Part shown: in pieces, positions 18,095 through 34,035 of the stretch
Layout of the letters: each line of letters starts with the position of its first letter
Numbering within the stretch: the first letter of the stretch is position 1
Assembly: GCA_001804865.1 (NCBI GenBank)
Contig: MHBK01000019.1
Coordinates: forward strand, 1 to 64,000
Reading direction: 5' to 3'
Source: Lentisphaerae bacterium GWF2_57_35
GTDB taxonomy: Bacteria > Verrucomicrobiota > Kiritimatiellia > CAIQIC01 > GWF2-57-35
DNA length: 64,000 nucleotides
Notes under the pieces: generated by a model
What the model was told of the DNA's origin: nothing
The model's input: the letters and a program-made list of their open reading frames with translations, nothing else
The model's database searches: none
Program-made: the position numbers and the translations under genes

Positions 18095-19152
18095 TGAAAC
18101 TTCAACCGCTGCACATCGGACAACTAAAAATCGAATTTCCAGTCTTTCTGGCCCCTATGGCCGGCTATACGGACTACGCCTTCCGCTCCATTTGCGTCGA
18201 GCATGGCGCCGGCTCGACCCTGACGGAAATGGTCAATGCGATGGGCATCGTGCGCCGGCAACCCCGCACGCTGCACATCCTCGAGACGCTTCCCGCCGAA
18301 CGTCCGGTCGGCGCGCACATCTATGGATCCGATCCGTCCGTCATGGCCGATGCCGCCGCTTTCATCGAGTCGCTGAACTGCTTCGATTTCATTGACATTA
18401 ACGGCGGCTGCCCAGTGCCGAAAATCATGCGCCGGGGAGACGGCGCGGGCTTGCTGAAGAATCCGGCCCGCATGGCCGAAGTGGTGCGGGCCATTCGCCA
18501 GGCGGTGCGCTTGCCAATCACGGTCAAAACCCGCATCGGACTTTCAGCACAGGCCTGCAACATTTCGGAAGTGGCGCAAGGCATCGAGGAAGCCGGAGCA
18601 GACGCTATATTTTTGCACGCACGCTTTGCCAATGTACGCCACGCCGGCGCTGCGAATTGGGATCTACTGGCGCGAATCAAGGCGGAACGAAAAATTCCCG
18701 TCATCGGCAATGGGGGCATTGCCGTGGCGGCCGACATCGCACGAATGATCCAAGCCACCGGAGTCGATGGCGTCATGATCGGCCGCGCGGCGCTGGGGAA
18801 CCCCTGGATATTTCAACAATGTCGAGCCTTGAGTGACGAACAGATAGCCACCTATCCCTCTCCGGCCGAAAAACGCGCCGTCATTGTGACACATCTGGAA
18901 CGACTCACCCGCCTGACCGAAATGGAAATGGTCTACCGCAAGAAAATGCGACAACCCGCTTCAACGGCAGCTTGCTTGACCTTTCGCGCCCATATCGTGC
19001 GATACGCACGGGGATTTGCCGGCTTCCGGGAATTGGCCACGAATCTTCAGAATTTGGAAACCATCGAAAAATTGATGGACATGGTGGACCATGTGCTGAC
19101 CACCCAGTGGCGCCGGTCTTCCCAACCGGTCGATCCGCAAGGACGTACCTAA
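18094..19152 (+). CDS. dusB: tRNA-dihydrouridine synthase (DusB-like)
   Basis: A 352-residue FMN enzyme reducing uridine to dihydrouridine in tRNA. FMN-barrel signatures: FLAPMAGYTDYAFRSICVE, the catalytic cysteine in DINGGCPVPKIMRRGDGAGL, TVKTRIGL, FLHAR, PVIGNGGI and VMIGRAALGNPWIF. The C-terminal helical tRNA-binding domain follows. The DusB subtype is likely from overall length and the GCP-PKI block but not certain. Last gene of the signalling unit. Confidence 0.9.
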   Translation: MKLQPLHIGQLKIEFPVFLAPMAGYTDYAFRSICVEHGAGSTLTEMVNAMGIVRRQPRTLHILETLPAERPVGAHIYGSDPSVMADAAAFIESLNCFDFIDINGGCPVPKIMRRGDGAGLLKNPARMAEVVRAIRQAVRLPITVKTRIGLSAQACNISEVAQGIEEAGADAIFLHARFANVRHAGAANWDLLARIKAERKIPVIGNGGIAVAADIARMIQATGVDGVMIGRAALGNPWIFQQCRALSDEQIATYPSPAEKRAVIVTHLERLTRLTEMEMVYRKKMRQPASTAACLTFRAHIVRYARGFAGFRELATNLQNLETIEKLMDMVDHVLTTQWRRSSQPVDPQGRT

Positions 19153-21374: not shown

Positions 21375-21423
21375 TCTGCCAAGTCGCAGCTTGATATGGG
21401 GCAACAAACAACAGGAGGAATCG

Positions 21424-21576
21424 ATGAGGCAGGAAAAGGAAATTAAAGAGGAGCAACCGGTCGAAAAGACTTCATATGAGGCTCCAAAGATGAAGAAACA
21501 CGATCCGGTAAAGATCGTCCAAGGCTCCGGAAGCTGCGGCGGGCTTTATTACACATCGCTGTATTATTCCTACTAA
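21424..21576 (+). CDS. RiPP precursor peptide with lasso-type YxxP leader and Tyr-rich C-terminus
   Basis: A 50-residue peptide with a strong ribosome-binding site (AGGAGG, 5 nt before ATG). The leader is charged (Lys/Glu-rich residues 3-15) and contains TSYEAPKM at 16-23, matching the Y-x-x-P motif that lasso-peptide leaders use to bind the RRE (B1). The C-terminal part reads GSGSCGG (34-40) then LYYTSLYYSY (41-50): five Tyr, three further Ser/Thr and one Cys nearby, an unusually modifiable tail. A terminator follows 13 nt after the stop, so the transcript is partly separate from the maturation genes. No other gene of this size in the window has such a motif. Core boundary and modifications are unknown; lasso topology is unlikely because no cyclase is present. 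Confidence 0.85.
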   Translation: MRQEKEIKEEQPVEKTSYEAPKMKKHDPVKIVQGSGSCGGLYYTSLYYSY

Positions 21577-21589
21577 TCTTTTGTGCGAA

Positions 21590-21632
21590 AACCTCGCGGG
21601 CTCATCCCATAGACCCGCGAGGTTTTTTTTTG
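21590..21632 (+). terminator. Terminator/attenuator after the precursor gene
   Basis: An 11-bp perfect stem aacctcgcggg/cccgcgaggtt around a 13-nt loop is followed by a run of nine T. It stands between the precursor and the biosynthetic genes, an arrangement that lets the precursor transcript exceed that of the enzymes. Confidence 0.95.
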
Positions 21633-21682: not shown

Positions 21683-22675
21683 TTGGGTCCTTGGATCTTT
21701 TGCATCGAGTCCAATTCCCAAGCCGTCCTGGAAAGCGTGGCGAGTCTGTTTGCCCATCGGGCATCGTATCGCGCACCGGAACAAGGCCGGGTTTTTACTT
21801 GTCGCGTGACGGACGATCCGGATGCTTTTTTCCATTTAGAAGCACAACTCCAAGGTTGCCCGGCTGTCGTGTCGGCCACCAAGGGGATATCGATTCGATA
21901 TGCTTACCAGAGCTCTCGGACGCTCATCGGCATGGATCACACGGCGATCATGCAGCTTGATGAAGGCCAGCCGGAACAAGCGAACGTGTTCCTGGATCCG
22001 ACGAATTACGCCCCCTATCTGGCTGGCGACGCCCAACGCAGAATTCGCGCCGATCCCGAAGCTTTTCTCTACCCGCTTCTGGCCGAATGGCTGCGCACCT
22101 GGGATGCCTGCCTGATCCATTGCGGCGCCGTGGTCGTGAATGGTCATACCGTCATGTTTTCCGGTCCGCCCGGCAGCGGGAAGTCGACCCAAGTTTTGCG
22201 CCTGCTGCTTCAGGGCGCTCATTTTTTGGCGGACGATCTGGCCATTTTACGGCGCTCGGAGCAAGGCTTGTGCATGCAACCGCTTCGCGAGGTGGCCAAT
22301 GTCAGCCCTATTTCCAAGCAGCATTTTCCCGAATTGGAGTTCCTGGATCGTTGTCCCGTTCGGGGCGACGGCAAGCGCATGGTCGACATCCATAGCATCC
22401 TGGGCCAATCGGCTGCGCAAGAAGCCCGACCCGGCGCCATACTTCGTATCCATCCGGACTCCGCTTCCTGGATCATTCCTTGTCCGGAGGAAGATCGCCT
22501 CACGGGCATCGAAAACATGGCGTGGTTTCGATCCGATCCCGCAAGAACGACCCGGCATTTCTGGCTGTTGATGGATTGGCTCTCGGCTTCGCGCCAGTGG
22601 CGCGTATCCCAGGGGTATCTGGCCTCTCATTTGTCGGAACTCATGCACCTGCTAAAACAGGAGTTTCCGGCATGA
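21683..22675 (+). CDS. HPr kinase-like protein A of the RiPP cluster
   Basis: A protein of about 330 residues. The HprK-type C-terminal kinase domain has Walker A GPPGSGKS (~161-168), then QGAHFLADDLAIL with the Asp pair seen in HPr kinase/phosphorylase. The N-terminal ~140 residues are family-specific. Relatives act as K proteins in lasso clusters (phosphorylating a Ser of the peptide) or in 'HPr-rel' systems with PqqD-like and nucleotidyltransferase partners. The frame opens with a TTG at 21683; a CTG at 21659 behind GGGGGA is also possible, so the start is uncertain. It overlaps kinase B by 4 nt. Substrate is presumably the Ser/Thr/Tyr-rich core (inference). Confidence 0.8.
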   Translation: MGPWIFCIESNSQAVLESVASLFAHRASYRAPEQGRVFTCRVTDDPDAFFHLEAQLQGCPAVVSATKGISIRYAYQSSRTLIGMDHTAIMQLDEGQPEQANVFLDPTNYAPYLAGDAQRRIRADPEAFLYPLLAEWLRTWDACLIHCGAVVVNGHTVMFSGPPGSGKSTQVLRLLLQGAHFLADDLAILRRSEQGLCMQPLREVANVSPISKQHFPELEFLDRCPVRGDGKRMVDIHSILGQSAAQEARPGAILRIHPDSASWIIPCPEEDRLTGIENMAWFRSDPARTTRHFWLLMDWLSASRQWRVSQGYLASHLSELMHLLKQEFPA

Positions 22676-23682
22676 GATCTTTTACCTCGCTGTTCGAACC
22701 GCTGGCCGCCCAAGCTTCCTGCCGGCACACCATCCCCATCATGAGCGCCCGGCTGAACCTGTTCTCTTCGGACGCGGAATTGCTGAACGATTTTGCACAC
22801 ACTTTTGTGGATTTGGATTTTACCGGTCATCAAGCCGGCTCGCAGAGCATGGAATGCGGCCTTGCGCCCCTGTCGGCCGCCTTGGATTGGAAAGACGCGC
22901 TGTCGGCCCGTCTGCAACGGGAGATCGATCATGAAGGCCTCGGACGACTCGTTCTTTATAAATGGCAGGAAGGCATCGGAGTCGAGCAGCGCGGGTTCGG
23001 CGTCGTGTTGGCGCATGCGTCCGGGCAATTTCTTTGCCTGGTCGAGAACCCGGCAGCCGCCCCCGCCGGCCGCATGCGGAATCTTTTCGGACTGGCCCAA
23101 CTCATCACGGCCGAAGCGCTGACCCGCCAACAACTCTTGTTTGTGCATGCCGGCGGTTGCGGGCTCAATGGGCGCTGCATCCTTCTGACCGGCCCCAGCG
23201 GCGCGGGAAAGACCACGCAAGCACTCCGCTTGATCCGAGAAGGCGCAACTTTTTACGGCGACGACCAGATCGTCGTGGGCCGAAATGCCGAAGGCCGATG
23301 GACCGCCTGGCCTTACTGGCGCAACATCGGCATTACCGCCTCGACGGCCCAGCTCCTCCCCTGGCTGCCGCAACCGGACAAAAACGGGGCCGGCAAAGAA
23401 AAATTCTTTTTTTCGGCCGGCGAGGAATTCCAATTCAAGAAGCCGGGTCCGGCCCGGATCGAGGCCATCGCATGGCTTTCTCCAACGGAGACAGAGCTTC
23501 GAAAGGTAGACCGCGAGGAGGCGCTGGCTTGCCTGGGCCAGCATTTTCTATCGGTCCCCTGGACGGCGGATGCCGGTCAAGTCTTGGGCGCGCTTTGCGA
23601 AATGGCGGAGAAAATCCCGGTTTACATCATGCCCCGAAACCAACTATCGGTCGCCGCCTGGAAACAAATCGCCCATGCATGA
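22672..23682 (+). CDS. HPr kinase-like protein B of the RiPP cluster
   Basis: A 336-residue paralogue of kinase A: Walker A GPSGAGKT (174-181) in ILLTGPSGAGKTTQALRL and EGATFYGDDQIVV (Asp-Asp at ~197-198). The N-terminal ~150 residues differ strongly from kinase A. ATG at 22672 overlaps the preceding stop (ATGA), and its own stop lies within the first codons of the radical SAM gene. Two tandem HprK-like proteins suggest two phosphorylation sites, a heteromeric kinase, or kinase plus phosphorylase. Confidence 0.8.
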   Translation: MRSFTSLFEPLAAQASCRHTIPIMSARLNLFSSDAELLNDFAHTFVDLDFTGHQAGSQSMECGLAPLSAALDWKDALSARLQREIDHEGLGRLVLYKWQEGIGVEQRGFGVVLAHASGQFLCLVENPAAAPAGRMRNLFGLAQLITAEALTRQQLLFVHAGGCGLNGRCILLTGPSGAGKTTQALRLIREGATFYGDDQIVVGRNAEGRWTAWPYWRNIGITASTAQLLPWLPQPDKNGAGKEKFFFSAGEEFQFKKPGPARIEAIAWLSPTETELRKVDREEALACLGQHFLSVPWTADAGQVLGALCEMAEKIPVYIMPRNQLSVAAWKQIAHA

Positions 23683-25063
23683 TCTTTCCTCCAACGAAAC
23701 GATCCGCCTGCTGTCCGCGGACGATCCGACCCAACAGCTCGGGCTGGCGTTGTTGGGCGATTCGCCGGAGCGTCATGCCGCTCAAATCCTGGAAGCCATG
23801 CTTCAAGCCAGCGCTCCGGCGCGCGATCGACTCGGCTTGTTCTGCCGGACGCGCTTTCCCTTTCTGGCGCCGCCCTGCAAAGCCGGACGTCTCATCGACG
23901 CGAATTCGTTCGTGGTCGGCGACGGCATGAAGCAACGCGAAAACCTCTTTTTGCATTCCGTGCGAGTCTGGCTGGAATCGCATCGCGAAAAGAATCCGTC
24001 TGTCTGTTTCGACCTGCTGAAGGAGCACACCGCCCTGGCGGCCGAATACGAACGAATAATTGAAGAACTCCTGGGCGCAACCGGCCTCGATGCCTGGCGG
24101 CCCTACGCAGCCAATGCCCAACCGGACCCCGTCCGGCAGTTGGGGTTTGCGCCGACGTACCGGTGCAACTTGTCTTGTCCCTACTGCATCAGCGCCTCCA
24201 TGCCGCGTGACGAGGCGGGCTGGGAGGATATCCGCCGCTTGATCCATTGGTGCCGGCAAAACGACGTCCGCCGGCTTCACTTGTTCGGCGGGGAGCCCAC
24301 TTTCCATCCAAATTTTACGGCCCTGCTACAGGAGGCCGAACAAGCCGGACTGGAAGTCTATTTTCCATCGAATTTGGTCATGTCCCCCGCCAACCTCGCC
24401 TTCATCCAACCCCCGGTGGTCCGCACGGTAACGGCGCACGTTCGGTCGCCGGATTCAACGCGCACCGGCGACACGTTCTGGCAGACGGCCGATACGCTGC
24501 AACAAAAGGGCGTTGCCGTGCGGGTGCGCTACAATTTAAAAAACGAGGACTGGTCGTTTCTGGTCGACGGCCTCAAACGGCTAAACAGCCGTAAGTTGAT
24601 TTTTGCCGGCATCGAATTCCCGGGCTGCGGGACACAGCGTTCCGAGGTGGAGTGGCTCGATCACGTCGCCTGCGCGCGCCGTTTTGTGGACTACATGCTG
24701 GAGCGAAACATCAAACCGGTGCTGGCCAAACCCCTGCCGCAATGCCTCGTGGAACAGGTCGGAGGCGCCATCCCCTGGGACGTTTTCCGGGGCCATTGCG
24801 AAGTTCATCAAAACCGGTACATGCGGAATGTTCATGTGCGCCCCGACTTCAAGATCGCCCTGTGCAATGGGGATATGAATCCGGCGAGACCCAGCCTGTG
24901 GCAATTCCCCGACTGGGCGGCCTTGCAGGACTACGTCGAACCCCGTCTGCGCGCATGGCAGAAACAACCGCTTTGGCCAAAATGCCGGTCCTGCTACTAT
25001 GAATTCCGCGGACTCTGCCAGGGCGCTTGCCTGATCGCAAAAGACCAGGAGCTGAAATCGTGA
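23675..25063 (+). CDS. Radical SAM/SPASM protein 1 with ~150-residue N-terminal extension
   Basis: A 462-residue protein. The SAM cluster motif CNLSCPYC is at Cys164/168/171, followed by the GGEP-type motif LHLFGGEPTFHP. The C-terminus has a SPASM/twitch-like Cys set (CKPL-region cysteines, CEVHQ, IALCNGD, CRSCYYEFRGLCQGAC) for auxiliary clusters. Residues 1-150 precede the barrel, contain CRTRFPFLAPPCKAGR, and match no family I know; they could be a leader-binding or partner domain. ATG at 23675 overlaps kinase B by 8 nt. Probably modifies the precursor core. Confidence 0.85.
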   Translation: MHDLSSNETIRLLSADDPTQQLGLALLGDSPERHAAQILEAMLQASAPARDRLGLFCRTRFPFLAPPCKAGRLIDANSFVVGDGMKQRENLFLHSVRVWLESHREKNPSVCFDLLKEHTALAAEYERIIEELLGATGLDAWRPYAANAQPDPVRQLGFAPTYRCNLSCPYCISASMPRDEAGWEDIRRLIHWCRQNDVRRLHLFGGEPTFHPNFTALLQEAEQAGLEVYFPSNLVMSPANLAFIQPPVVRTVTAHVRSPDSTRTGDTFWQTADTLQQKGVAVRVRYNLKNEDWSFLVDGLKRLNSRKLIFAGIEFPGCGTQRSEVEWLDHVACARRFVDYMLERNIKPVLAKPLPQCLVEQVGGAIPWDVFRGHCEVHQNRYMRNVHVRPDFKIALCNGDMNPARPSLWQFPDWAALQDYVEPRLRAWQKQPLWPKCRSCYYEFRGLCQGACLIAKDQELKS

Positions 25064-25557
25064 AAGCCGGCTTCCAACAAATCATGAGCCGTATCGATCG
25101 GCTGACGGCGCTGATCGAGCATAAAAACATCGAAGAAGCCGCCCAACTCGTGGACGAGCATCGAGCCGAATTGGCCTTGGATGACCCTCTTTATCCCTGG
25201 CTCAAAAGAGCCTGGCCTCTGCTTCGCTATTTACGACCTGAAACCCGGCGCCAGCCCTGCCTGTACCTTTGCCTGTTGTTCTTCGCGCGAGCCTGCCGCT
25301 TGCAGCAGGACGCACGGATTAACGTCTGCCTGTCCGCCCACCAGACGGAGATGAACAACGGGCATTGCTGGCTGACCATTGACGGAGAGACGATCCCTCT
25401 GTCGCCTTCCGACCGCGACCATTTCGGCGAATGCCTCGGCGGCAGCCAATGGATTCGCTATTGGGTGAGGTTTTCCCTTCGGAGCCGCAATCCGCACATT
25501 ATGGCCCGACTTAAACACATCACGCGCTTTTTGCACAAAGGAGCTTCTCATGGCTAA
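25060..25557 (+). CDS. Lasso B2-type (McjB/transglutaminase-like) leader peptidase
   Basis: A 165-residue protein. The segment from residue 66, PCLYLCLLFFARACRLQQDA, then INVCLSAH and GHCWLTIDGETIPLS, matches the McjB C-terminal (Transglut_core3) pattern: nucleophile Cys67, His102 and Asp108 as the presumed triad. In lasso clusters B2 cleaves the leader with the help of B1. The start is a GTG at 25060 overlapping the previous stop (GTGA), 9 nt after AGGAG. It overlaps the next radical SAM gene by 8 nt. B1 is a separate gene at 29371-29646, as in split-B lasso systems. B2 identity rests on motif pattern, not on a search. Confidence 0.75.
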   Translation: MKAGFQQIMSRIDRLTALIEHKNIEEAAQLVDEHRAELALDDPLYPWLKRAWPLLRYLRPETRRQPCLYLCLLFFARACRLQQDARINVCLSAHQTEMNNGHCWLTIDGETIPLSPSDRDHFGECLGGSQWIRYWVRFSLRSRNPHIMARLKHITRFLHKGASHG

Positions 25558-26527
25558 TATCATGTTAACGACCGCCTGTAATTTCCGATGCGATTACTGC
25601 TTCGGACGGCAGTTGATCGGCCCCGAACATCCGATTCAGATGATGGACCCGGACCTCTATCGCCGGTTGCTCGATTGGATCGATGCCGCCAATATGCCGA
25701 ACCTGGACGTCCACCTCATGGGCGGAGAGCCCACCCTGCATCCGAAATTCTCCGAATTAGCCGAGGAGCTGGTTCAACGGGGACGCAAGGCGGTTGTTTT
25801 CTCGAATTTGTCGGCGCCCTTGCCCAAAGAAGTGCTGGAACGTTGCGTGGAGAACGACGTGATGTGGGTAGTCAATGCCAACGCCCCCTCCTCTTACCTG
25901 CCCGTTCAATTGGAGCACTTGCATCGCAATCTGGCCGTAGTGGGCGACCAAGCGATGCTGACGTTCAACATCACGGGGCCCGACACGGATTTCGACTACA
26001 TCTTCGACCTGATCGCGCAGCACAAGCTTGCGCACAGCATTAAAATCGGCATCACGCTGCCCACCCTGGATCATCAAAATGCGCATGTGAAGCGGGAACA
26101 ATACCCCGGCGTGGCCAAGCGAGTCATGGAACTTCACGAGGAGGCCCTTCGTCAAAACGTCCGGATCGAATTCGAATGCGGCGTGGCCTACTGCGTATTT
26201 AGCCCCGCCCAGCGCGCGCTCTTGAAAGACATCCATATCAGCCATTGCGGATCGCGGCTGGACATCACGCCCTGGGGCGAAGTCATCAACTGCCTGCCGT
26301 TGTGTAAAGCCGCCAGCATAGCTTATGACCGGTTCGCGCATTATGGCGAAGCCGTGCACTGGTATCGCCGGGCGCTGCATCCCTATCGGGGCTTGGGCAA
26401 CTCTACGACCTGTCCCGACTGCGCTCACATGAAGGAAGGTCGTTGCGGAGTCTGTCTGGCGGACACGCTGTGGCAGATGGATCACATCGCCTGGCCGCCT
26501 CAACCGGCGGCGAACTCGATTTCATAA
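25550..26527 (+). CDS. Radical SAM/SPASM protein 2
   Basis: A 325-residue protein that begins almost directly with the cluster motif CNFRCDYC (Cys10/14/17), followed by HLMGGEPTLHPKF. The C-terminal half has FECGVAYCVFSP, SHCGSRLDITPWGEVINCLP and CPDCAHMKEGRCGVC, the Cys layout of two auxiliary clusters. Clearly paralogous to the protein at 28405-29358 (motif at the same residues) and to the Cys-less relative at 27563-28408. Start overlaps B2 by 8 nt; ends one base into the next start (TAATG). Inferred precursor-modifying enzyme. Confidence 0.88.
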   Translation: MANIMLTTACNFRCDYCFGRQLIGPEHPIQMMDPDLYRRLLDWIDAANMPNLDVHLMGGEPTLHPKFSELAEELVQRGRKAVVFSNLSAPLPKEVLERCVENDVMWVVNANAPSSYLPVQLEHLHRNLAVVGDQAMLTFNITGPDTDFDYIFDLIAQHKLAHSIKIGITLPTLDHQNAHVKREQYPGVAKRVMELHEEALRQNVRIEFECGVAYCVFSPAQRALLKDIHISHCGSRLDITPWGEVINCLPLCKAASIAYDRFAHYGEAVHWYRRALHPYRGLGNSTTCPDCAHMKEGRCGVCLADTLWQMDHIAWPPQPAANSIS

Positions 26528-27555
26528 TGGACGCAAACCCGATGCCGCGCTCCTTCAAAGAACACTGCCGACGACGACTGACCCGCTGGACGGGTCTGCC
26601 CTTCGGCCCACCCCGAACGCTGGCCATCGAGCCGACCAATCACTGCACCCGGAAATGCCCAGTCTGCGGCGCTCATTCCGGCCAGGCCATCCGCCCGCGC
26701 GGCTTCATGGATTGGAATCTTTTTCTGGCCCTCGCGGATCAAATCCAGGCCCTGAAGCCGGCGCGAGTTTCTTTGTATGGGCACGGAGAGCCGCTGTTGC
26801 ATCCGCGCTTGCCCGACATGACGCGGGAGCTGGCGCAACGGGGCTTGCACACTGAAATAGTAACTAACGGCGATCTACTGGATGCGGAGCTGCTGGCGCG
26901 ATGCTCGTCAGCCGGTCTCGGCAGCTTGATTGTCTCCCACCCCGGCATTACGCCGGCAAATTACAAAGCTTGCCGGGGCGAGCTGCAAAATACAGTCCAG
27001 GAAGATCGATTGCGATCGTTGATTCAAAGTGCGGCGCCTTCCTGCGACATTTACATCCGCAGTCTGGTTTTGCCGCAGCTGTTGAACGACGGCCCCGCCG
27101 AGTTGGCGTCGTTTGTCCGCGGCTGGCTCACGCTGCCAGGCATCCGCGGCGTGGGACTGCACGGATATCAACCCTGGCCGCGTCATGGCCTGGAGCAGCA
27201 CCTCGGGCAGCTCTTTACCCGAGCCCGCCGTTGCGAGTTGGGCATGGAAACCATGACCGTTCTCTGGAATGGAACCGTTACGCTGTGCTCTTACGATTCG
27301 GAAGGAGCCCTCGCGGTGGGACAGGCACCGGGCTTGTCCTTGCTGGATGCTTACCGCGGCGCCGAAGCCCGGCGGCGGCGCAAAGCATGGTTTGGCGCCT
27401 CGTCCAAATGGCCGGAACTGTGCCGCGATTGCCTGTTGCCCCGTTGCGCGGCGGTCTTCATTCCCCTGGGCCGCGAGATTCTTCGCTCGGAGACCTTGTT
27501 CGAACGCCAGGTTCGCAGTGCGTACGATCAACTGAACGCCGCGCATTCAGGATAG
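26527..27555 (+). CDS. Radical SAM/SPASM protein 3
   Basis: A 342-residue protein of a different subfamily from protein 2: CTRKCPVC at Cys40/44/47 within LAIEPTNHCTRKCPVCGAH, then VSLYGHGEPLLHP (GEP motif) and a C-terminal SPASM-like CSYDSEG...CRDCLLPRC. The IEPTNHC context recalls SPASM proteins acting on peptides or in cofactor assembly. ATG at 26527 overlaps the previous stop. It is the last plus-strand gene of this arm, ending 7 nt before the convergent minus-strand arm. Confidence 0.87.
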   Translation: MDANPMPRSFKEHCRRRLTRWTGLPFGPPRTLAIEPTNHCTRKCPVCGAHSGQAIRPRGFMDWNLFLALADQIQALKPARVSLYGHGEPLLHPRLPDMTRELAQRGLHTEIVTNGDLLDAELLARCSSAGLGSLIVSHPGITPANYKACRGELQNTVQEDRLRSLIQSAAPSCDIYIRSLVLPQLLNDGPAELASFVRGWLTLPGIRGVGLHGYQPWPRHGLEQHLGQLFTRARRCELGMETMTVLWNGTVTLCSYDSEGALAVGQAPGLSLLDAYRGAEARRRRKAWFGASSKWPELCRDCLLPRCAAVFIPLGREILRSETLFERQVRSAYDQLNAAHSG

Positions 27556-27562
27556 CGCGCCC

Positions 27563-28408
27563 TTATCGGCCAGCCTGCCACCCCGACATGGACTGCGCCA
27601 GGCAACCCACCCCGCAAGCCCCCGTGGCCAAACTCCGGCAATTCGTACCCCCAGCCCGCTCGCACCAACCCTGGAAAACCGCAGGCCAACCGGCCATCAC
27701 GTCCGCCCGGCTAACGGAAGCATCCAGATTCATGCCGCGGCCATCCATCGCCGGGCACAATCGCAAGGTTCCATCGGGCAAAACAGCGAGCTGAAGCTGA
27801 CAGCGCGCCGCCGGCCAACGAATGCGCGTGCCGGTCAATTGGGCAAGCTGCGGCCGGGAAAAAAGGCAGAGCGGCAACCCGCAGGCAAATTCCACATCCA
27901 GCCGCCGGGCGCTCAATTCAGCGGCCAGTTCCACCAACAATTTGCCCCACACGGAATACCGATCGGGAGAGATGATTCCCGGTCTTTCGAAACGGCTCGG
28001 CCACATCGCCCCCAGCACAACCCGCCGCGAGGGCTTTATCGCGTCCACCACTTTCAACCAAAGCGCAGGATCAGCGACGGGCTCCATCAAGGGCAAAAAC
28101 AAAACCGACGGCAAAACCGGATAACGAGGGGCTGCCGTTTCCATGCCGGCGGCATCAAGACCCCATTCGCTGCCATGAGCCTGAATGGTCTCGATATGCT
28201 CCATCGTAACATGCCGATCGAACCAGCCATGAACCCAATACGGAGGTTTCAAAATCGCCAGGGCGCCCCGAAGCTCGTTTACGTCCACTTCGCCGCGCAC
28301 ATAAAGATGAATTTCCGGGTCGCCGGATGTGAGGCTCCATTCGGCACAACGTTTCAGGCACTCGGCCGTCATGACCGACCGGCCATCGCCAAGCCAGATC
28401 GCGATCAT
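27563..28408 (-). CDS. Radical SAM-like pseudo-enzyme (CX3CX2C lost, SPASM-like C-terminus kept)
   Basis: A 281-residue paralogue of the radical SAM proteins at 25550 and 28405. The C-terminal block VEFACGLPLCLFSRPQL...RCQLQLAVLPDGTLRLCP...CRSLATGACGVGC aligns with theirs position by position. The N-terminus starts IAIWLGDGRSVMTAECL, with no cysteine cluster where CX3CX2C should be. It therefore cannot bind the SAM cluster but may keep an auxiliary cluster or bind peptide. ATG at 28408 overlaps the upstream gene's stop (ATGA), with intact frame and normal codons, so it is not a decaying pseudogene. Possibly a scaffold or partner. Confidence 0.75.
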   Translation of the reverse strand: MIAIWLGDGRSVMTAECLKRCAEWSLTSGDPEIHLYVRGEVDVNELRGALAILKPPYWVHGWFDRHVTMEHIETIQAHGSEWGLDAAGMETAAPRYPVLPSVLFLPLMEPVADPALWLKVVDAIKPSRRVVLGAMWPSRFERPGIISPDRYSVWGKLLVELAAELSARRLDVEFACGLPLCLFSRPQLAQLTGTRIRWPAARCQLQLAVLPDGTLRLCPAMDGRGMNLDASVSRADVMAGWPAVFQGWCERAGGTNCRSLATGACGVGCLAQSMSGWQAGR

Positions 28409-29358
28409 GAGTCGCCTCCCGCCCGGGCCAGCGTTCTGGACATGCACCCGCCCGAACAAACGCCGTCAGCGAAAGGACGGCATTGAACGCAACTCTTCAA
28501 ACTTCCGCGCGCTTGGGGCTCCTGCCAACGCTCCAGGAAATGCCGGGAGATTTCTTCCAGCGAGGAAAATTGCGTCAAGGTCACGCTGTGCGCGCCGGAA
28601 AACGGGAAACATCGCCACACCTTCAAGTCAGGTCCAATATCCAGGATCGGCTTGCATACGAACAACAATTCGGCGCCGCACTCCACCAAGGTCGCCAATT
28701 CGTCCGGCGTGAAGAGGCACCGTTGAAAACCGCAGTCAAAACCGATCACAATGCCGTCCTTCGCCAAATCCACGGCCATCTCCACCAAGCGGGCCGCGAC
28801 GGAGCGCAAATCGGCGTCCTTGAGGTATACGTTTTTCTCGCCCTGAATGGGTTGCGTGATGCCGATGCGAATGGATTTTCCCAGGCCGGTTTCCTGAATC
28901 GTCCGGCGCAGATAATCCCACTCGAATCCGGGCGTATAAATGTTGAACGAAAGCCGCGCCCGATCGCCGAAGGCCCGGCCGTTTGCCACGATTTCGGTCC
29001 ATTCCGTTTTCGTATATTGATCGGGCGGATTCAAATTAACGATGATCCGCAAGGCCGATGAAGGAGACAGGTCCACCACCTCCCTCAGGCGGGGATTCGT
29101 GCCGTTGGTGAAAATTTTTACGCTGTAGCGCCGATCCAAAGCCAGCTTCACCAGCTGGGCAAAATGCCGGTGCAGCGTAGGCTCGCCGCCCAACAACGCC
29201 ACCGAGTCGCGCCCCGGACGCAAATAGCCGAGGATGGTTTCATATTCCGCCAGACTCATTTCCCAGCGAGGCGTCGATGTGCCCAGGGCGACTTGTTCCT
29301 TGGCAAAGCAGTAAGGACAACTCCGATTGCAGTAATTGGTCAGGAGGATATTCGGCAT
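28405..29358 (-). CDS. Radical SAM/SPASM protein 4
   Basis: A 317-residue enzyme with CNRSCPYC at Cys10/14/17 (same positions as protein 2), SVALLGGEPTLHRHF, and C-terminal FDCGFQRCLFTP, CKPILDIGPDLKVWRC and CVQCRPFADGVCSGGC. It lies 12 nt downstream of the PqqD-like B1 gene; RRE-radical SAM adjacency is a hallmark of RiPP maturation. It overlaps the pseudo-enzyme gene by 4 nt, which suggests the two are made in equal amounts and may form a pair. Confidence 0.88.
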   Translation of the reverse strand: MPNILLTNYCNRSCPYCFAKEQVALGTSTPRWEMSLAEYETILGYLRPGRDSVALLGGEPTLHRHFAQLVKLALDRRYSVKIFTNGTNPRLREVVDLSPSSALRIIVNLNPPDQYTKTEWTEIVANGRAFGDRARLSFNIYTPGFEWDYLRRTIQETGLGKSIRIGITQPIQGEKNVYLKDADLRSVAARLVEMAVDLAKDGIVIGFDCGFQRCLFTPDELATLVECGAELLFVCKPILDIGPDLKVWRCFPFSGAHSVTLTQFSSLEEISRHFLERWQEPQARGSLKSCVQCRPFADGVCSGGCMSRTLARAGGDS

Positions 29359-29370
29359 TCGCCACGCTCT

Positions 29371-29646
29371 TCAGGAACCAGTCGATTCCGCCACGAGGTT
29401 TTCGCTTTTCCACTCGCCGATGAGGGCGAGGCAATCCTGCCGCACGGCCTCCGCTTCCGGCGCTTCTTTCACGGCATCGCGCAGAGCCATCACCGTCTCG
29501 TCCAGCGACTTCTTGCCGACCACATGATTTTTCCACAACAAAGAACCCGTGGCGTTCAAGGTGTAGTACTGGCCGTTGGCCGTATTAAGAACCACGCAAA
29601 TGTCCCCGGAATTCCGCCACACAATATGATCCCCTGTCGTCAACAT
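29371..29646 (-). CDS. PqqD-like RRE protein (lasso B1-type leader-binding protein)
   Basis: A 91-residue protein with the PqqD/RRE pattern: three beta strands around WRNSGDICVVLNTANGQYYTL, then NATGSLLWKNHVVGKKSLDETVMAL and a terminal helix. The RRE binds leader peptides; in lasso systems it recognises the YxxP motif, which the precursor at 21424 carries. A strong AAAGGAG precedes the ATG by about 6 nt. It follows the NTP_transf_5 gene (84-nt gap) and precedes radical SAM protein 4. Confidence 0.88.
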   Translation of the reverse strand: MLTTGDHIVWRNSGDICVVLNTANGQYYTLNATGSLLWKNHVVGKKSLDETVMALRDAVKEAPEAEAVRQDCLALIGEWKSENLVAESTGS

Positions 29647-29729: not shown

Positions 29730-30839
29730 TCATCCACCGCGCGCAATCACTTTACCGCTGAGCCCAGCCCGTCGCGCCGAGCGATACTCCCGCATAAATT
29801 TTGCCGAGAAGCACGGGAGAATGGCGGCGAGCTTGGACCACCACCCTTCCGCCTCGCTCACTTCAATCCGTTTCCACAACCTGAAAGCTTCCGGAGACTC
29901 CCCGGTGAAAAGTCCTCTGGCAGCCCAATAACGATTGACCAGCCGATCGAAACGGTCTTTCACACCCCAATCGACGCTTGCCCAGCTCAAAGGCATTTCC
30001 CAACCGACTTCCTGCAGGCCCCGCCATACGACCCAGGCCATGCGGCCCCATCCCCGTGATAAAAAGGCCGTTTGCACAGCCGAAGGGTCAGGCTGCCGAA
30101 CCGACCACCAGGCCGCCAGGTCGCGAAGCCAGAGGTAACGCGCATACTCATGATGCCTCGCATGCAAAACCAACATCAGCAGATCGTCAACGGGTTCCAA
30201 TTGTAACAACGGCGCATGTCGCGGAGAGGGTTGAGCCCTATCCATTAAGGCCTCCGTGCTCAACAAGCCCCAGTGCCGTCGGCGTTCCGCTGCGCAAAAA
30301 TGGACCTCAATAAGCGCATCGCCCCGACGATAAATCCGCTGGCGCCTGCGGCGTTCTTCTTCAAACCGATGCCCTAAAAACCAGGAGGAAACGGCATCGA
30401 TATCGTTTTCGGAAACGAGCAGATCGATATCGCGAACTTCCCGGCAACGATAATCGCCGAAGACTTCCAAGAGGTAATTCGGGGATTTCATCAGCACGAC
30501 CCGGCAGCCGATTTCACGAGCCAACGTTCCTACTTCGCAAAGGCCTTCGTTCACGATGGCCCCACGTCGCGCGGCGGTCTCTCCGGCAATCCAGAGCAGC
30601 TCTCGGGCCGCTTCCGGCAAAGCCGAGAAGCCGGCCCAGGGCGTTTGGAAGCCCGCCAGCACCCGATGATACTGCCCCATCCACAGCAGATAGCCCCAAT
30701 CCAGCTGTTCCATGTCCCAGACGGATTCCATGCATCGATTGCGCCAGCTTGCCTCCAGGGAAGAAAACCAGAATTGCCGGGAATACGGGTCGGCCCGCTT
30801 GGGACAGACCAATTCAAATTCGTTCATTTGCTTTGCCAT
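29730..30839 (-). CDS. NTP_transf_5-type nucleotidyltransferase
   Basis: A 369-residue protein with the hallmark of the 'uncharacterised nucleotidyltransferase' family: VVLMKSPNYLLEVFGDY then REVRDIDLLVSENDIDAV (metal-binding D-I-D) and later DALIEVHF. Such proteins accompany HprK-like kinases in lasso and HPr-rel clusters; in the pseudomycoidin lasso system the homologue is implicated in elaborating the phosphorylated residue. ATG at 30839 or 30827; neither has a clear ribosome-binding site. It is divergent from the kinase gene at 30907 across a 67-nt shared promoter region. Confidence 0.82.
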   Translation of the reverse strand: MAKQMNEFELVCPKRADPYSRQFWFSSLEASWRNRCMESVWDMEQLDWGYLLWMGQYHRVLAGFQTPWAGFSALPEAARELLWIAGETAARRGAIVNEGLCEVGTLAREIGCRVVLMKSPNYLLEVFGDYRCREVRDIDLLVSENDIDAVSSWFLGHRFEEERRRRQRIYRRGDALIEVHFCAAERRRHWGLLSTEALMDRAQPSPRHAPLLQLEPVDDLLMLVLHARHHEYARYLWLRDLAAWWSVRQPDPSAVQTAFLSRGWGRMAWVVWRGLQEVGWEMPLSWASVDWGVKDRFDRLVNRYWAARGLFTGESPEAFRLWKRIEVSEAEGWWSKLAAILPCFSAKFMREYRSARRAGLSGKVIARGG

Positions 30840-30906
30840 AGTTTGGGACCGTCGTATACTGAAATCCACGTATAACACGTCCGCCGCACGGGCGTCAAAA
30901 CTGCAC

Positions 30907-31728
30907 ATGAATCCATTAAAGAAAACCGATCGTTCGCTGCCCCCGGGATACAGGGCTGAAGGGATGCGGCATGAAAGCCCGGCTTACGTCGTGTACCAAG
31001 CGCTGCACCTGGCCACCGGCCGGATGTGCGCTATTAAAACCACGCGAAAAGCGCCCACCCCGGACGCCACAACGGCCTTGGAACATGAATTTGACGCGCT
31101 ACGGCGTTTGTCGGGATCGTTCGCGCCCAAAGCGTACGAGTTGCTTCGTCCGGAGAAGCTGTTCCTCGTGCTGGAGTGGATCGACGGCGCCGACCTGGAA
31201 AGCATCATTCGAAGCAAGCCGCCGCTTCCACGCGCCATCGCACTGGCAAGCATGATCCTGAAGGCCGTTGACGATTTGCATGCCTCGGGTTTTTTGCACT
31301 TGGATCTGAAGCCGGCCAATATTCTGATCCGCCCAACGGGCGCCGCCGCCTTGATCGATTTTGCCCTCGCCCAACCCATCGGGCCGCCTGTCGCCCCGCC
31401 CGAGCAGCCGTTTCTTTTGCAAGGGACTTTATCCTATATGGCGCCGGAGCAAACCGGCTGGCTCGATGCACCGATCGATCGACGCGCGGATTATTATGCG
31501 CTGGGAGTCATTTTTTATGAATTGTTCGTCGGCGCGACGCCGTTTGCCGCCCAGACATTTCAGGAACTGCTGGATCATGTGCTTCACTCCGTTCCGGCAG
31601 AACCCATCGACCTACCGCTGCCGCTAAACCAGCTCATCATGCAATTGCTGGCCAAGCATCCGGATCAGCGGCCCGGCGAATTGGGCAAAGCCGCCGCGGT
31701 CGTTTCCTCGTCGGCAGAGATTTGCTGA
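30907..31728 (+). CDS. Ser/Thr protein kinase-like protein
   Basis: A 273-residue Hanks-type kinase domain without membrane or sensor domains. Present: the N-lobe lysine in CAIKTTRK (Lys44), catalytic loop HLDLKPANIL (His131, Asp133, Asn138) and YMAPEQTGWLD (APE). Atypical: no GxGxxG loop (RAEGMRHESPAYVVY instead), and DFG replaced by DFA (Asp151-Ala153). The Asp is retained, so activity is possible. The stop region overlaps the 3' end of the convergent ABC gene by 64 nt. Could regulate the cluster or phosphorylate the peptide; neither is shown. Confidence 0.85.
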   Translation: MNPLKKTDRSLPPGYRAEGMRHESPAYVVYQALHLATGRMCAIKTTRKAPTPDATTALEHEFDALRRLSGSFAPKAYELLRPEKLFLVLEWIDGADLESIIRSKPPLPRAIALASMILKAVDDLHASGFLHLDLKPANILIRPTGAAALIDFALAQPIGPPVAPPEQPFLLQGTLSYMAPEQTGWLDAPIDRRADYYALGVIFYELFVGATPFAAQTFQELLDHVLHSVPAEPIDLPLPLNQLIMQLLAKHPDQRPGELGKAAAVVSSSAEIC

Positions 31729-33500
31729 ACCATGCACATATACTTGAAGATCGGCGACGAAACGAGCAGGTCCTGAGGCCGCCCCACGGCTTCCACGCGG
31801 TTTTGATTGAGCACGACCACCCGATCCGATCGCATGGCCAGACTCATGCGATGCGTGACGATCAGCGTGATGCGCTCCGGCGCCGCTGAACCGATCAACC
31901 GAAAAACCTGTTCCTCCGACTGGGCATCCAAGGCCGAAGTCGGTTCGTCGAGCAACAACACATCCGGCCGCGCCAGCAACGCGCGCAACAAGGCGATTCG
32001 CTGGGCTTCGCCGCCCGACCAGTCCGTCCCGCTTTCGGCCATCCGGGCCTCCAAGCCGCCCCGGCGAGCCGTCACTTCGCCCAGCCCCAGCGTCGCCAGC
32101 CCCGAGAGCAGCTCTTCCTCGCACACGTCAGGGGCTCGAATCAGCAGATTCTCCCGGATCGTCCCTCGAAAGAGTTCCGGAGATTGGAAAACCACGCCAA
32201 TTCGGCGTCGCCAATCGCCCAAGGCCAGCGTATCCAAGGAACGTCCGTTCACAAGCACTTGCCCTTGATCCGGCTGAATGAAGCCCAGTATCAAATCCAA
32301 GAGCGTGGATTTTCCTACTCCGCTCAAGCCCACCATGCTCACTACCTCGCCGCGCCTCACGGCCAAGTCAATCTGTTCCAAGCCGCCCCCATCCGCTCCA
32401 TACGCAAAACTCACGTTGGAAAAGGCCAGCTCGTGAACAGGGCCGGGCATGGGCGCCGCATCCGGTTTTTCGATGGCCTCGGGAGGTTCATCCATGAGCT
32501 TCAGATAACGAGAGCCCGCCGCGCGAAAATCCTGCACCGAAGCCACGGCCAGGGCCGCCTTGCGCAATTCCTGTCCGATAAGCAGAATCCCGACGAGAAT
32601 GGACACCAAGGCGCCCACGGACAATTCGCCGCGGCGCACCCAATCCACGCCGGTAAAGGCGACGGCCAGAAAGCAGAGCAATAGGACGATCGCCGCCACA
32701 TGCCGCGCCGCCAGGGCCATCAACAAGCCGCTGCGCGCCAGCCGCAGATGATCCTTCACCCAGGCGCGAAGCACGCCGGCCTGCCGTTCCTCCAGGCAGA
32801 ACGCCTTGACGGTCCGCGCATGAAAAAACGATTCCGCCAATCGGCCCGTCAAACTGCTCATCTGATCCAGCTTATCCGCGCTGATGCGCATGAGCCGCCG
32901 GCGGAGCAGCAAAGCCGGCAATCCGGCGGCCAGCAGCGAGACAACGATCACGGCCGCGTAGCCCCGCGAAAGCCAAAGGATGGACGACAGATAAACCAGC
33001 AGAGTAATCGGGGCCGCCAGCAACAGCCGGGGCAACGTCAGTATCCCCTGTTGAACGGCCCTCACATCGTGATCGCAACGGGAAACCCATTCGCCGACCG
33101 GCACGCTCTCGAGCCGGCGCAGCGGCAGCCGCAGCACATGAAGATAGACCGCCTCGCGCAAGGTCTCGCGAATTCGCAGCGATTCGCCCAACTCCAGATT
33201 GGAACTGAGAAAAAACACGATTTCGACGGCCAGCAAGAGTCCCGCGCTGCACGCAAACAACCACCCCGCATCGTACCCCAGCGAGCCGCCCTCCCATTCC
33301 ACCAGCCGTCGCAAGAGAGGCAACAGGGCCGCCAACATCGCCGCCGCCAAGCTTTGAAGGCCAATCAAGGCAAGCAGCTTCCACCACGAGCACCGGGCCA
33401 GACGGCTGATGCGGAAAAAATCGTCCCGGGAAAAATCCGAAGGAGCGCCGCGGCGACGGGGATTCGCCAAAGCCAAAGGAGTCTCCCTGTTGTGCTTCAT
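31665..33500 (-). CDS. ABC exporter (lasso D-like), fused membrane and ATPase domains
   Basis: A 611-residue half-transporter: transmembrane helices between ~40 and 310, then an ATPase with Walker A GLSGVGKST (391-399), Q-loop VVFQSPELF, signature WSGGEAQ (494-500), Walker B VLLLDEPTS (~514-522) and H-loop His550. There is no N-terminal C39 peptidase domain, so leader removal must be done elsewhere, consistent with B2. Alone in its orientation next to the kinase; proposed to export the mature peptide. An MsbA-like lipid exporter is the alternative. Confidence 0.88.
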   Translation of the reverse strand: MKHNRETPLALANPRRRGAPSDFSRDDFFRISRLARCSWWKLLALIGLQSLAAAMLAALLPLLRRLVEWEGGSLGYDAGWLFACSAGLLLAVEIVFFLSSNLELGESLRIRETLREAVYLHVLRLPLRRLESVPVGEWVSRCDHDVRAVQQGILTLPRLLLAAPITLLVYLSSILWLSRGYAAVIVVSLLAAGLPALLLRRRLMRISADKLDQMSSLTGRLAESFFHARTVKAFCLEERQAGVLRAWVKDHLRLARSGLLMALAARHVAAIVLLLCFLAVAFTGVDWVRRGELSVGALVSILVGILLIGQELRKAALAVASVQDFRAAGSRYLKLMDEPPEAIEKPDAAPMPGPVHELAFSNVSFAYGADGGGLEQIDLAVRRGEVVSMVGLSGVGKSTLLDLILGFIQPDQGQVLVNGRSLDTLALGDWRRRIGVVFQSPELFRGTIRENLLIRAPDVCEEELLSGLATLGLGEVTARRGGLEARMAESGTDWSGGEAQRIALLRALLARPDVLLLDEPTSALDAQSEEQVFRLIGSAAPERITLIVTHRMSLAMRSDRVVVLNQNRVEAVGRPQDLLVSSPIFKYMCMVQQISADEETTAAALPNSPGR

Positions 33501-33543: not shown

Positions 33544-34035
33544 CTATTTATGCAACTCGAGAATCCGTGCGATCAGGGCTGTCGTGGACAGCCCTTTAAC
33601 CAGCGGGGCCAATACGACTCGCCCGCCGTTCTTCTCCACCACCTCGCGCCCGCTGACGTAGTGCGCCCAATCCTCGGCCTTCACCAGCACGTCAGGAATC
33701 AGCTCGCCGATCAGCGGCGCGGGTTCGTCTTCATCAAAAACAACCACATAGTCGATGGCCTCCAGCGCGGCCAGCAGCCGCGCCCGGTCGTCCTGGGCAA
33801 CGATCGGGCGCTTCTCGCCTTTGATCCGCCGGATGGAGACATCCGAGTTCAATCCAAGAATCAACACATCCCCCTGAGCGCGAGCGAAGGAGAGATACGA
33901 GACATGTCCGGCATGCAGGATATCGAAACAGCCGTTGGTAAAAACGACCTTCTTGCCTTGCTGCTTTAACCGAAGCCGCTCGGCCTTCATGGCCTCGCGC
34001 GTCATAATCTTGGATTCAACGTTTCGCATAAACAC
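33544..34035 (-). CDS. rfaE2: D-glycero-beta-D-manno-heptose 1-phosphate adenylyltransferase (RfaE2-type)
   Basis: A 163-residue (or slightly shorter) nucleotidyltransferase: KKVVFTNGCFDILHAGHVSYL holds the HxGH motif, then RRIKGEKRPIVAQDDRARLLAALEAIDYVVVFDEDEP, diagnostic of the C-terminal half of HldE. It makes ADP-heptose for LPS core; hldD follows at 39156-40121. The N-terminus is uncertain (ATGs at 34035, 34029 and 34005). It starts 3 nt after the icd stop. Confidence 0.93.
   Translation of the reverse strand: MFMRNVESKIMTREAMKAERLRLKQQGKKVVFTNGCFDILHAGHVSYLSFARAQGDVLILGLNSDVSIRRIKGEKRPIVAQDDRARLLAALEAIDYVVVFDEDEPAPLIGELIPDVLVKAEDWAHYVSGREVVEKNGGRVVLAPLVKGLSTTALIARILELHK

Follow-up and report, generated by a model that had tools for sequence, protein, structure and literature searches.

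The window, that is, the whole stretch of 64,000 nucleotides analysed here (contig MHBK01000019.1 of Lentisphaerae bacterium GWF2_57_35), raises the question of what is produced where a short ORF with a lasso-type leader and a Tyr-rich tail lies next to HprK-type kinase and radical SAM genes. The ORF, located between positions 21424 and 21576 of the forward strand, runs from ATG to TAA and encodes 50 amino acids with the translation MRQEKEIKEEQPVEKTSYEAPKMKKHDPVKIVQGSGSCGGLYYTSLYYSY. Inspection of the reading frame confirmed the features on which the sequence-only reading had been built, i.e., the length of 50 residues, YEAP (Y18–P21), GSCGG, and LYYTSLYYSY. Among RBS-preceded ORFs of 25–90 aa with a YxxP motif between positions 19,000 and 36,000 of the window, this ORF alone qualified, and it was present in a single copy in its own assembly (5.05 Mb). 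The hairpin directly 3′ of it, a terminator or attenuator, was not seen in a simple terminator scan because the loop limit of that scan was 8. Searches of the own phylum with single precursor sequences gave chance matches only, inside ORFs of ∼600–820 aa, and no match was obtained for the four precursors tested against Pfam and NCBIfam, neither of which holds a curated model of the family.

Related loci were sought by scanning alignment A1 (rSAM2/4 and two relatives) against a collection of genomes from 84,980 species; an earlier contig scan with one protein as the query had returned no loci, but the alignment query worked. The same gene set was found in a Spirochaetes MAG (L013) and in 17 Bacteroidales MAGs (L014–L030) assigned to Prevotellaceae, Muribaculaceae, Rikenellaceae, Tannerellaceae, Dysgonomonadaceae, and other families. 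The lack of homologous ORFs in related loci had been named in the sequence-only reading as a ground for rejecting its view; the opposite was observed, as a short ORF of the family was found at the matching place of the gene order in all 18 loci (one Spirochaetes and 17 Bacteroidales genomes), with YxxP and Tyr spacing conserved. It usually lies between the PqqD and HprK genes, and in L013 it precedes HprK as in the window. Two tandem precursor genes were observed in L030 (11227–11388 and 11459–11623); their leaders are almost the same, whereas their cores differ.

Alignment of the precursors (19 rows) showed that Y18, P21, H26, V32, Q33, G34, and S35 are invariant. In all 20 peptides, YxxP is present, the His lies at Y+8, the Ser of VQGS lies at Y+17, and the core that follows is rich in Tyr. 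Tyr makes up 41% of the residues in the 20 cores; Leu (17%), Thr (13%), and Ser (9%) are also frequent, Glu is scarce (0.9%), and Asp is absent. The spacing from one LY to the next was five residues in 31 of 50 successive pairs, against a mean of 1.3 and a maximum of 7 in shuffled cores (2000 trials). The sequence-only reading had described two Tyr-Tyr pairs spaced by three residues; the Tyr spacing is indeed conserved, but the real unit is a pentad, L-Y-Y-x-x, present in two to six copies within the family, of which the window precursor, with two pentads, represents the minimum. Examples are YLYYTSLYYTSLYSGGLYYVTLYYSY (L018), LYYTSLYYSSLYYSGLYYYY (L021), and GCSGLYYASLYYYY (L013). The cysteine of GSCGG in the window core is not conserved in the family, and hence the modification common to its members is unlikely to be a thioether. 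The ORF of the window is almost certainly the precursor of a new RiPP family served by the surrounding cluster.

The genes of this cluster are listed in Table 1. They are split into two convergent halves, one from the precursor to rSAM3 on the forward strand and the other from the ABC exporter to the core-less paralogue on the reverse strand. The conserved set among the loci comprises the B2-like protein, rSAM4, rSAM2, PqqD, the precursor, one or two HprK-type kinases, rSAM1, rSAM3, the ABC exporter, and NTP5 (PF14907). The conserved clusters are compact, with hardly any unassigned large ORF within them, although L025 and L028 carry an inserted gene for a DUF6056 protein. The flanks beyond the gene set hold no notable gene family shared among the loci, and the borders of the cluster are thereby fixed. 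A Ser/Thr protein kinase gene at 30901–31728 (forward strand) was considered as a cluster member and rejected, being without a relative in the other conserved clusters; it lies between the nucleotidyltransferase and ABC genes, which run on the opposite strand.

Table 1. Features of the window cluster and Tyr-repeat peptide ORFs at remoter loci.
Feature	Position	Strand	Evidence and remarks
Perfect RBS of precursor (AGGAGGA)	21413–21419	+	sequence
Precursor peptide	21424–21576	+	leader YEAP (18–21), H26, VQGS (32–35); core GSCGG LYYTS LYYSY
Strong hairpin, then T-run, directly 3′ of precursor (terminator or attenuator)	21590–21631	+	fold z-score −5.5
HprK-type kinase 1	21683–22675	+	NCBIfam HprK_rel_A, sub-threshold, 5.7e-09; H, K, D, D conserved
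HprK-type kinase 2 (start approximate)	22744–23682	+	NCBIfam HprK_rel_B, sub-threshold, 1.6e-09
Radical SAM enzyme 1 (rSAM1)	23675–25063	+	PF04055, 8e-10; CxxxCxxC invariant in 16
B2-like (lasso leader peptidase-like) Cys-His protein	25084–25557	+	PF13471, 0.0064, below cut-off
Radical SAM enzyme 2 (rSAM2)	25550–26527	+	PF04055, 3.8e-12; all Cys invariant in 19
Radical SAM/SPASM enzyme 3 (rSAM3)	26521–27555	+	PF04055, 9e-13; PF13186, 6e-07
Radical SAM paralogue without CxxxCxxC core	27563–28459	−	no HMM match; hhalign to A1
Radical SAM enzyme 4 (rSAM4), paralogue of rSAM2	28405–29358	−	PF04055, 3.5e-14
PqqD/lasso-B1-type discrete RRE	29371–29646	−	PF05402, 1.5e-10; lasso_PqqD_Strm, 4e-07; best PDB match TbiB1 (weak)
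NTP_transf_5 nucleotidyltransferase (start approximate)	29730–30842	−	PF14907, 4e-23; D137, D139 invariant
MsbA-like ABC exporter (membrane + ATPase)	31665–33500	−	PF00005, PF00664
Tyr-repeat peptide near rSAM4-lineage gene	L047:1817–2161		
Tyr-repeat peptide near rSAM4-lineage gene	L058:8954–9412		
Tyr-repeat peptide near rSAM4-lineage gene	L063:7517–7840		
Tyr-repeat peptide near rSAM4-lineage gene	L071:7433–8035		
Tyr-repeat peptide near rSAM4-lineage gene	L073:9523–9957		
Tyr-repeat peptide near rSAM4-lineage gene	L074:2948–3394		
Tyr-repeat peptide near rSAM4-lineage gene	L075:13014–13265		
Tyr-repeat peptide near rSAM4-lineage gene	L081:9555–9992		
Tyr-repeat peptide near rSAM4-lineage gene	L091:9540–9971		

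None of the ten cluster proteins scanned against specific NCBIfam models reached the cut-off, and the active-site residues were found to be intact. The four radical SAM enzymes bearing CxxxCxxC (rSAM1–4) retain this motif as well as the C-terminal cysteines; rSAM1 carries an N-terminal extension of ∼150 residues in addition to its C-terminal Cys motifs. The C-terminal half of the core-less paralogue is homologous to rSAM2/4 (hhalign probability 97, E 9e-11 against alignment A1), and its predicted structure has a mean pLDDT of 44. The HprK-type kinases keep H146, K167, D184, and D185, corresponding to the H-K-D-D motif that lasso kinases are reported to use in catalysis (PMC9266682). In the RRE, N31 is kept in 19 of 19 sequences and D71 in 18 of 19. 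N31 aligns with Gly42 of PbaB1, a WxxP-type RRE, and with Asn33 of the YxxP-type RRE LppB, while D71 is, by its spacing to the domain end, probably the counterpart of D70 of LppB, the Asp that holds the Tyr (roles of these three residues from PMC13381572). The lasso/B1 type assigned to the leader by the sequence-only reading is in agreement with the invariance of its Tyr and Pro and with the weak match of the PqqD protein to TbiB1. Two points lay beyond that reading, i.e., a likely phosphorylation arm consisting of two H-K-D-D kinases and an invariant Ser, and the B2-like protein. In the latter, C59, N80, H94, and W96 are invariant in 18 homologues, no conserved acidic third residue is evident, and PF13471 falls below the Pfam cut-off. 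Fold matches were weak, with no significant Foldseek match for the model and weak transglutaminase-like rows in a second structural comparison (VIA-align). The assignment of this protein as a B2-type Cys protease is thus weak.

In terms of machinery, the nearest relatives of the system are the linear polyphosphorylated peptides (LPP) of Bacillota (Popov et al., 2026, PMC13381572) and the phosphorylated/glycosylated lasso peptides. LPP clusters combine an RRE, HprK, an NTP transferase, and an ABC transporter without a cyclase, and the LPP leader reads YxxPxVLxHQxIxFETxxS, with a Ser phosphorylated three residues past the cut, at Y+18 (PMC13381572). The window cluster shares with them the discrete RRE, the HprK-type kinase, the NTP transferase, the MsbA-like ABC exporter, and the lack of a cyclase, and the peptides share the YxxP leader, the His at Y+8, and a Ser right behind the leader (Y+18 in LPP, Y+17 here). 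LPP clusters, however, employ the SipW/SpI-like peptidase LppS where a B2-like protein is found here, no unassigned ORF of the LppS kind being present in the conserved clusters. They also lack radical SAM enzymes, their cores are variable and without Tyr pentads, and their junction is FETxxS instead of VQGS. Paeninodin and pseudomycoidin (PMC9266682) resemble the present system in the B1-type RRE with a [Y/W]xxP leader, the B2 protein (here a putative one), the ABC transporter, the H-K-D-D HprK-like kinase, and its nucleotidyltransferase partner (PsmN), but their phospho-Ser is C-terminal, and the phosphorylated/glycosylated lasso peptides have neither radical SAM enzymes nor Tyr repeats. Here, both the macrolactam cyclase and the ring-forming Gly1/Asp-Glu are missing. 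The view of the sequence-only reading that the tail is not lasso-like holds, and the window peptide does not belong to the lasso peptides.

As expected of a radical SAM RiPP, the conserved precursor adjoins genes for radical SAM enzymes whose CxxxCxxC motif is intact. The repeated-core radical SAM RiPPs, such as TvgA/TvgB, in which TvgB modifies each repeat (PMC9062424), and the aromatic cyclophane RiPPs likewise have a short repeated core beside a radical SAM/SPASM enzyme, but they differ in leader, RRE, kinase, and protease type. PQQ and mycofactocin share the PqqD-type RRE, a radical SAM enzyme with SPASM, and a Tyr near the C-terminus (PQQ also a lasso-like leader motif); unlike these, the Tyr units here are repeated in variable number and are accompanied by a kinase, a PF14907 protein, and an exporter.

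A pathway can be proposed from these comparisons, and as a whole, with the RRE, radical SAM enzymes on the Tyr pentads, the kinase/PF14907 pair on Ser, B2, and the ABC transporter, it is considered likely. By analogy with the mechanism of B1 and LppB, the PqqD-type RRE would grip YEAP in the leader and present the peptide to the enzymes. The radical SAM enzymes would then modify the C-terminal LYYTS-type pentads, most likely at the side chains of Tyr, each pentad receiving one modification or cross-link; the bond type (C–C, C–O, epimerisation, or other) cannot be told from sequence. The enzymes, which the LPP core cluster as described lacks and which form no part of the lasso clusters compared, are assigned to the pentads, and the retention of up to four of them together with a pentad kept across phyla points to core-directed chemistry. 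That the pentads are the radical SAM substrate is probable by association, the cluster combining four radical SAM genes with Tyr-repeat cores and remoter relatives of the same radical SAM family lying next to Tyr-rich peptides. The HprK-type kinases may phosphorylate a Ser, for which the invariant Ser35 of VQGS is the best candidate since the LPP phospho-Ser lies at Y+18 and the invariant Ser here at Y+17; phosphorylation of Ser35 is evenly poised between the two outcomes. The PF14907 protein could subsequently decorate the phosphate in the manner of PsmN in pseudomycoidin, and a hexose or nucleotide on the Ser35 phosphate is suggested tentatively. Leader removal near VQGS would fall to the B2-like Cys protease and export of the product to the ABC transporter.

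The possibility that a true lasso peptide is made, with a cyclase gene at another place in the genome and tailoring as the role of the radical SAM enzymes, has in its favor that lasso clusters typically contain all of the YxxP leader, B1-type RRE, B2-like protein, HprK, PF14907, and ABC and that Asn_synthase-domain genes (PF00733 matches) are present on other contigs. No cyclase of the Asn-synthetase fold was, however, found in any of the 19 clusters (window and L013–L030), and cores devoid of Asp and with so little Glu provide no isopeptide acceptor at positions 7–9; this possibility is largely refuted and very improbable. A linear (poly)phosphorylated and glycosylated chain, made as in LPP chiefly by phosphorylation and with just a few residues epimerised or altered by the radical SAM enzymes, would agree with the common kinase/NTP-transferase/ABC/RRE set and the similar leader geometry (PMC13381572), with the invariant Ser, and with pentads rich in Thr and Ser. 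It is nevertheless unlikely, as up to four radical SAM genes are kept together and the Tyr pentad is kept across phyla, whereas LPP cores are highly variable (PMC13381572).

Variation in the number of pentads (two to six between species) also speaks against the peptide being the source of a small redox cofactor like PQQ or mycofactocin, in which a Tyr pair would be processed by PqqD and a radical SAM enzyme and cut out afterwards, since a cofactor would demand a fixed structure. PqqD together with radical SAM/SPASM enzymes and a Tyr-containing C-terminus would fit such a role, but the ABC exporter is conserved, the Glu-x3-Tyr of PqqA type is absent from the window core, and the cores are nearly without Glu, which leaves this reading improbable. 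The strong hairpin with its T-run directly after the ORF, as found in attenuators, might suggest a chance ORF or a regulatory leader ahead of the kinase genes instead of a peptide gene; given the conservation of amino acids over three phyla at a matching position and the tandem copies in L030, this is already refuted and its probability is negligible. The preferred reading is a RiPP with radical-modified Tyr pentads. It possibly constitutes a RiPP class of its own, though this is advanced with less than even confidence, in which radical SAM enzymes cross-link or otherwise remodel LYYTS pentads on a lasso/LPP-type chassis and the invariant Ser bears a phospho-sugar; in many phyla, this radical SAM lineage would also act on Tyr repeats that follow unrelated, Tat-like leaders.

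A tree was built from 90 radical SAM sequences. In it, rSAM2 of the window, Spirochaetes, and Bacteroidales formed one clade (100/99), with the window and L013 as sisters (100/96), while rSAM4 of the window and L013 grouped together (99/90) apart from a clade of the Bacteroidales rSAM4 (100/100). The tree indicates that the radical SAM paralogues are old. As rSAM2 forms one clade with the window and Spirochaetes as sisters, the gene set appears to have been transferred as one unit. L013 lacks rSAM3, the core-less paralogue is present in the window and L013 only, and rSAM1 was undetected by profile in L024, L028, and L029; hence, not every enzyme is essential. These gaps and the division of the window cluster into two convergent halves weigh against the proposed pathway. 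Beyond L030, identity is lower and the gene set breaks up. When 387 genomes of the own phylum, 295 of Bacteroidales, and 149 of Spirochaetes were searched by profile, no member beyond those already known was found, and the system is therefore rare. Many Bacteroidales members originate from the rumen or gut, and some, as inferred from isolate names, from termite gut, so the product is likely made in animal-associated communities. Placement of the cluster in a polysaccharide locus, as for LPP, was considered and is not supported generally, since among the families listed for the flanks of the 18 other clusters, none was shared or specific to glycans. In the window, a long run of sugar-nucleotide genes (including heptose adenylyltransferase, heptose epimerase, GmhA-like, and HldE-like) lies downstream of the cluster at 33544–53589. 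The radical SAM enzyme of L072, which groups with rSAM4 of the window and L013, lies among sugar genes, and no precursor of the LYYTS/YxxP type was found there.

A search of the open literature for Tyr-rich cores, HprK, or YxxP in connection with radical SAM RiPPs revealed no description of the family, nor do the papers searched describe the LYYTS motif. Known parts are combined in a new way in this RiPP cluster, and its substrate code is new as well. Here, the lasso-type leader machinery is seen as a portable chassis fitted with radical SAM chemistry, and the substrate code formed by the five-residue repeat of variable number is unusually clear for radical enzymes, in this case ones that probably act on tyrosine. 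The cluster also offers an independent system for the function of the HprK/PF14907 pair outside lasso peptides.

Among remoter relatives, peptides with long Tyr-rich repeats (NYxNY, YYNYYSY) and mostly Tat-like RRDAxKRxxK leaders were observed near rSAM4-lineage genes in many phyla (Table 1), and judging by these features, they look like a second, larger family of Tyr-repeat RiPPs. Their proximity to rSAM4 relatives lends support to the assignment of the radical SAM enzymes to the Tyr pentads, though by the criterion applied here, only ∼13 of the 62 loci with remoter radical SAM genes have a co-directional Tyr-rich ORF, which in at least one case looks like a chance occurrence. The peptides of L047, L055, L058, L063, L073, L075, and L081 matched no specific NCBIfam family, and that of L063 touches the general Tat-signal model of NCBIfam. 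YxxPxxxKH peptides ending in poly-Tyr were seen in L054 (3868–3957) and L055 (4879–5058) beside PqqD, HprK, rSAM1, and PF14907 genes; they too lend support to that assignment and are a probable bridge between the LYYTS-pentad family and others. A Verrucomicrobiales peptide (…FQRPELKKHGKL…SKYTYSTIT; L034:4641–4790), with FxxP in place of YxxP, lies just before PqqD, PF14907, HprK, and radical SAM genes. Peptides with Cys repeats of the CxCxx type and a Tyr-rich or TYWYPN tail were also observed near radical SAM genes in L042 (7165–7530) and, as several ORFs, in L077 and L078.
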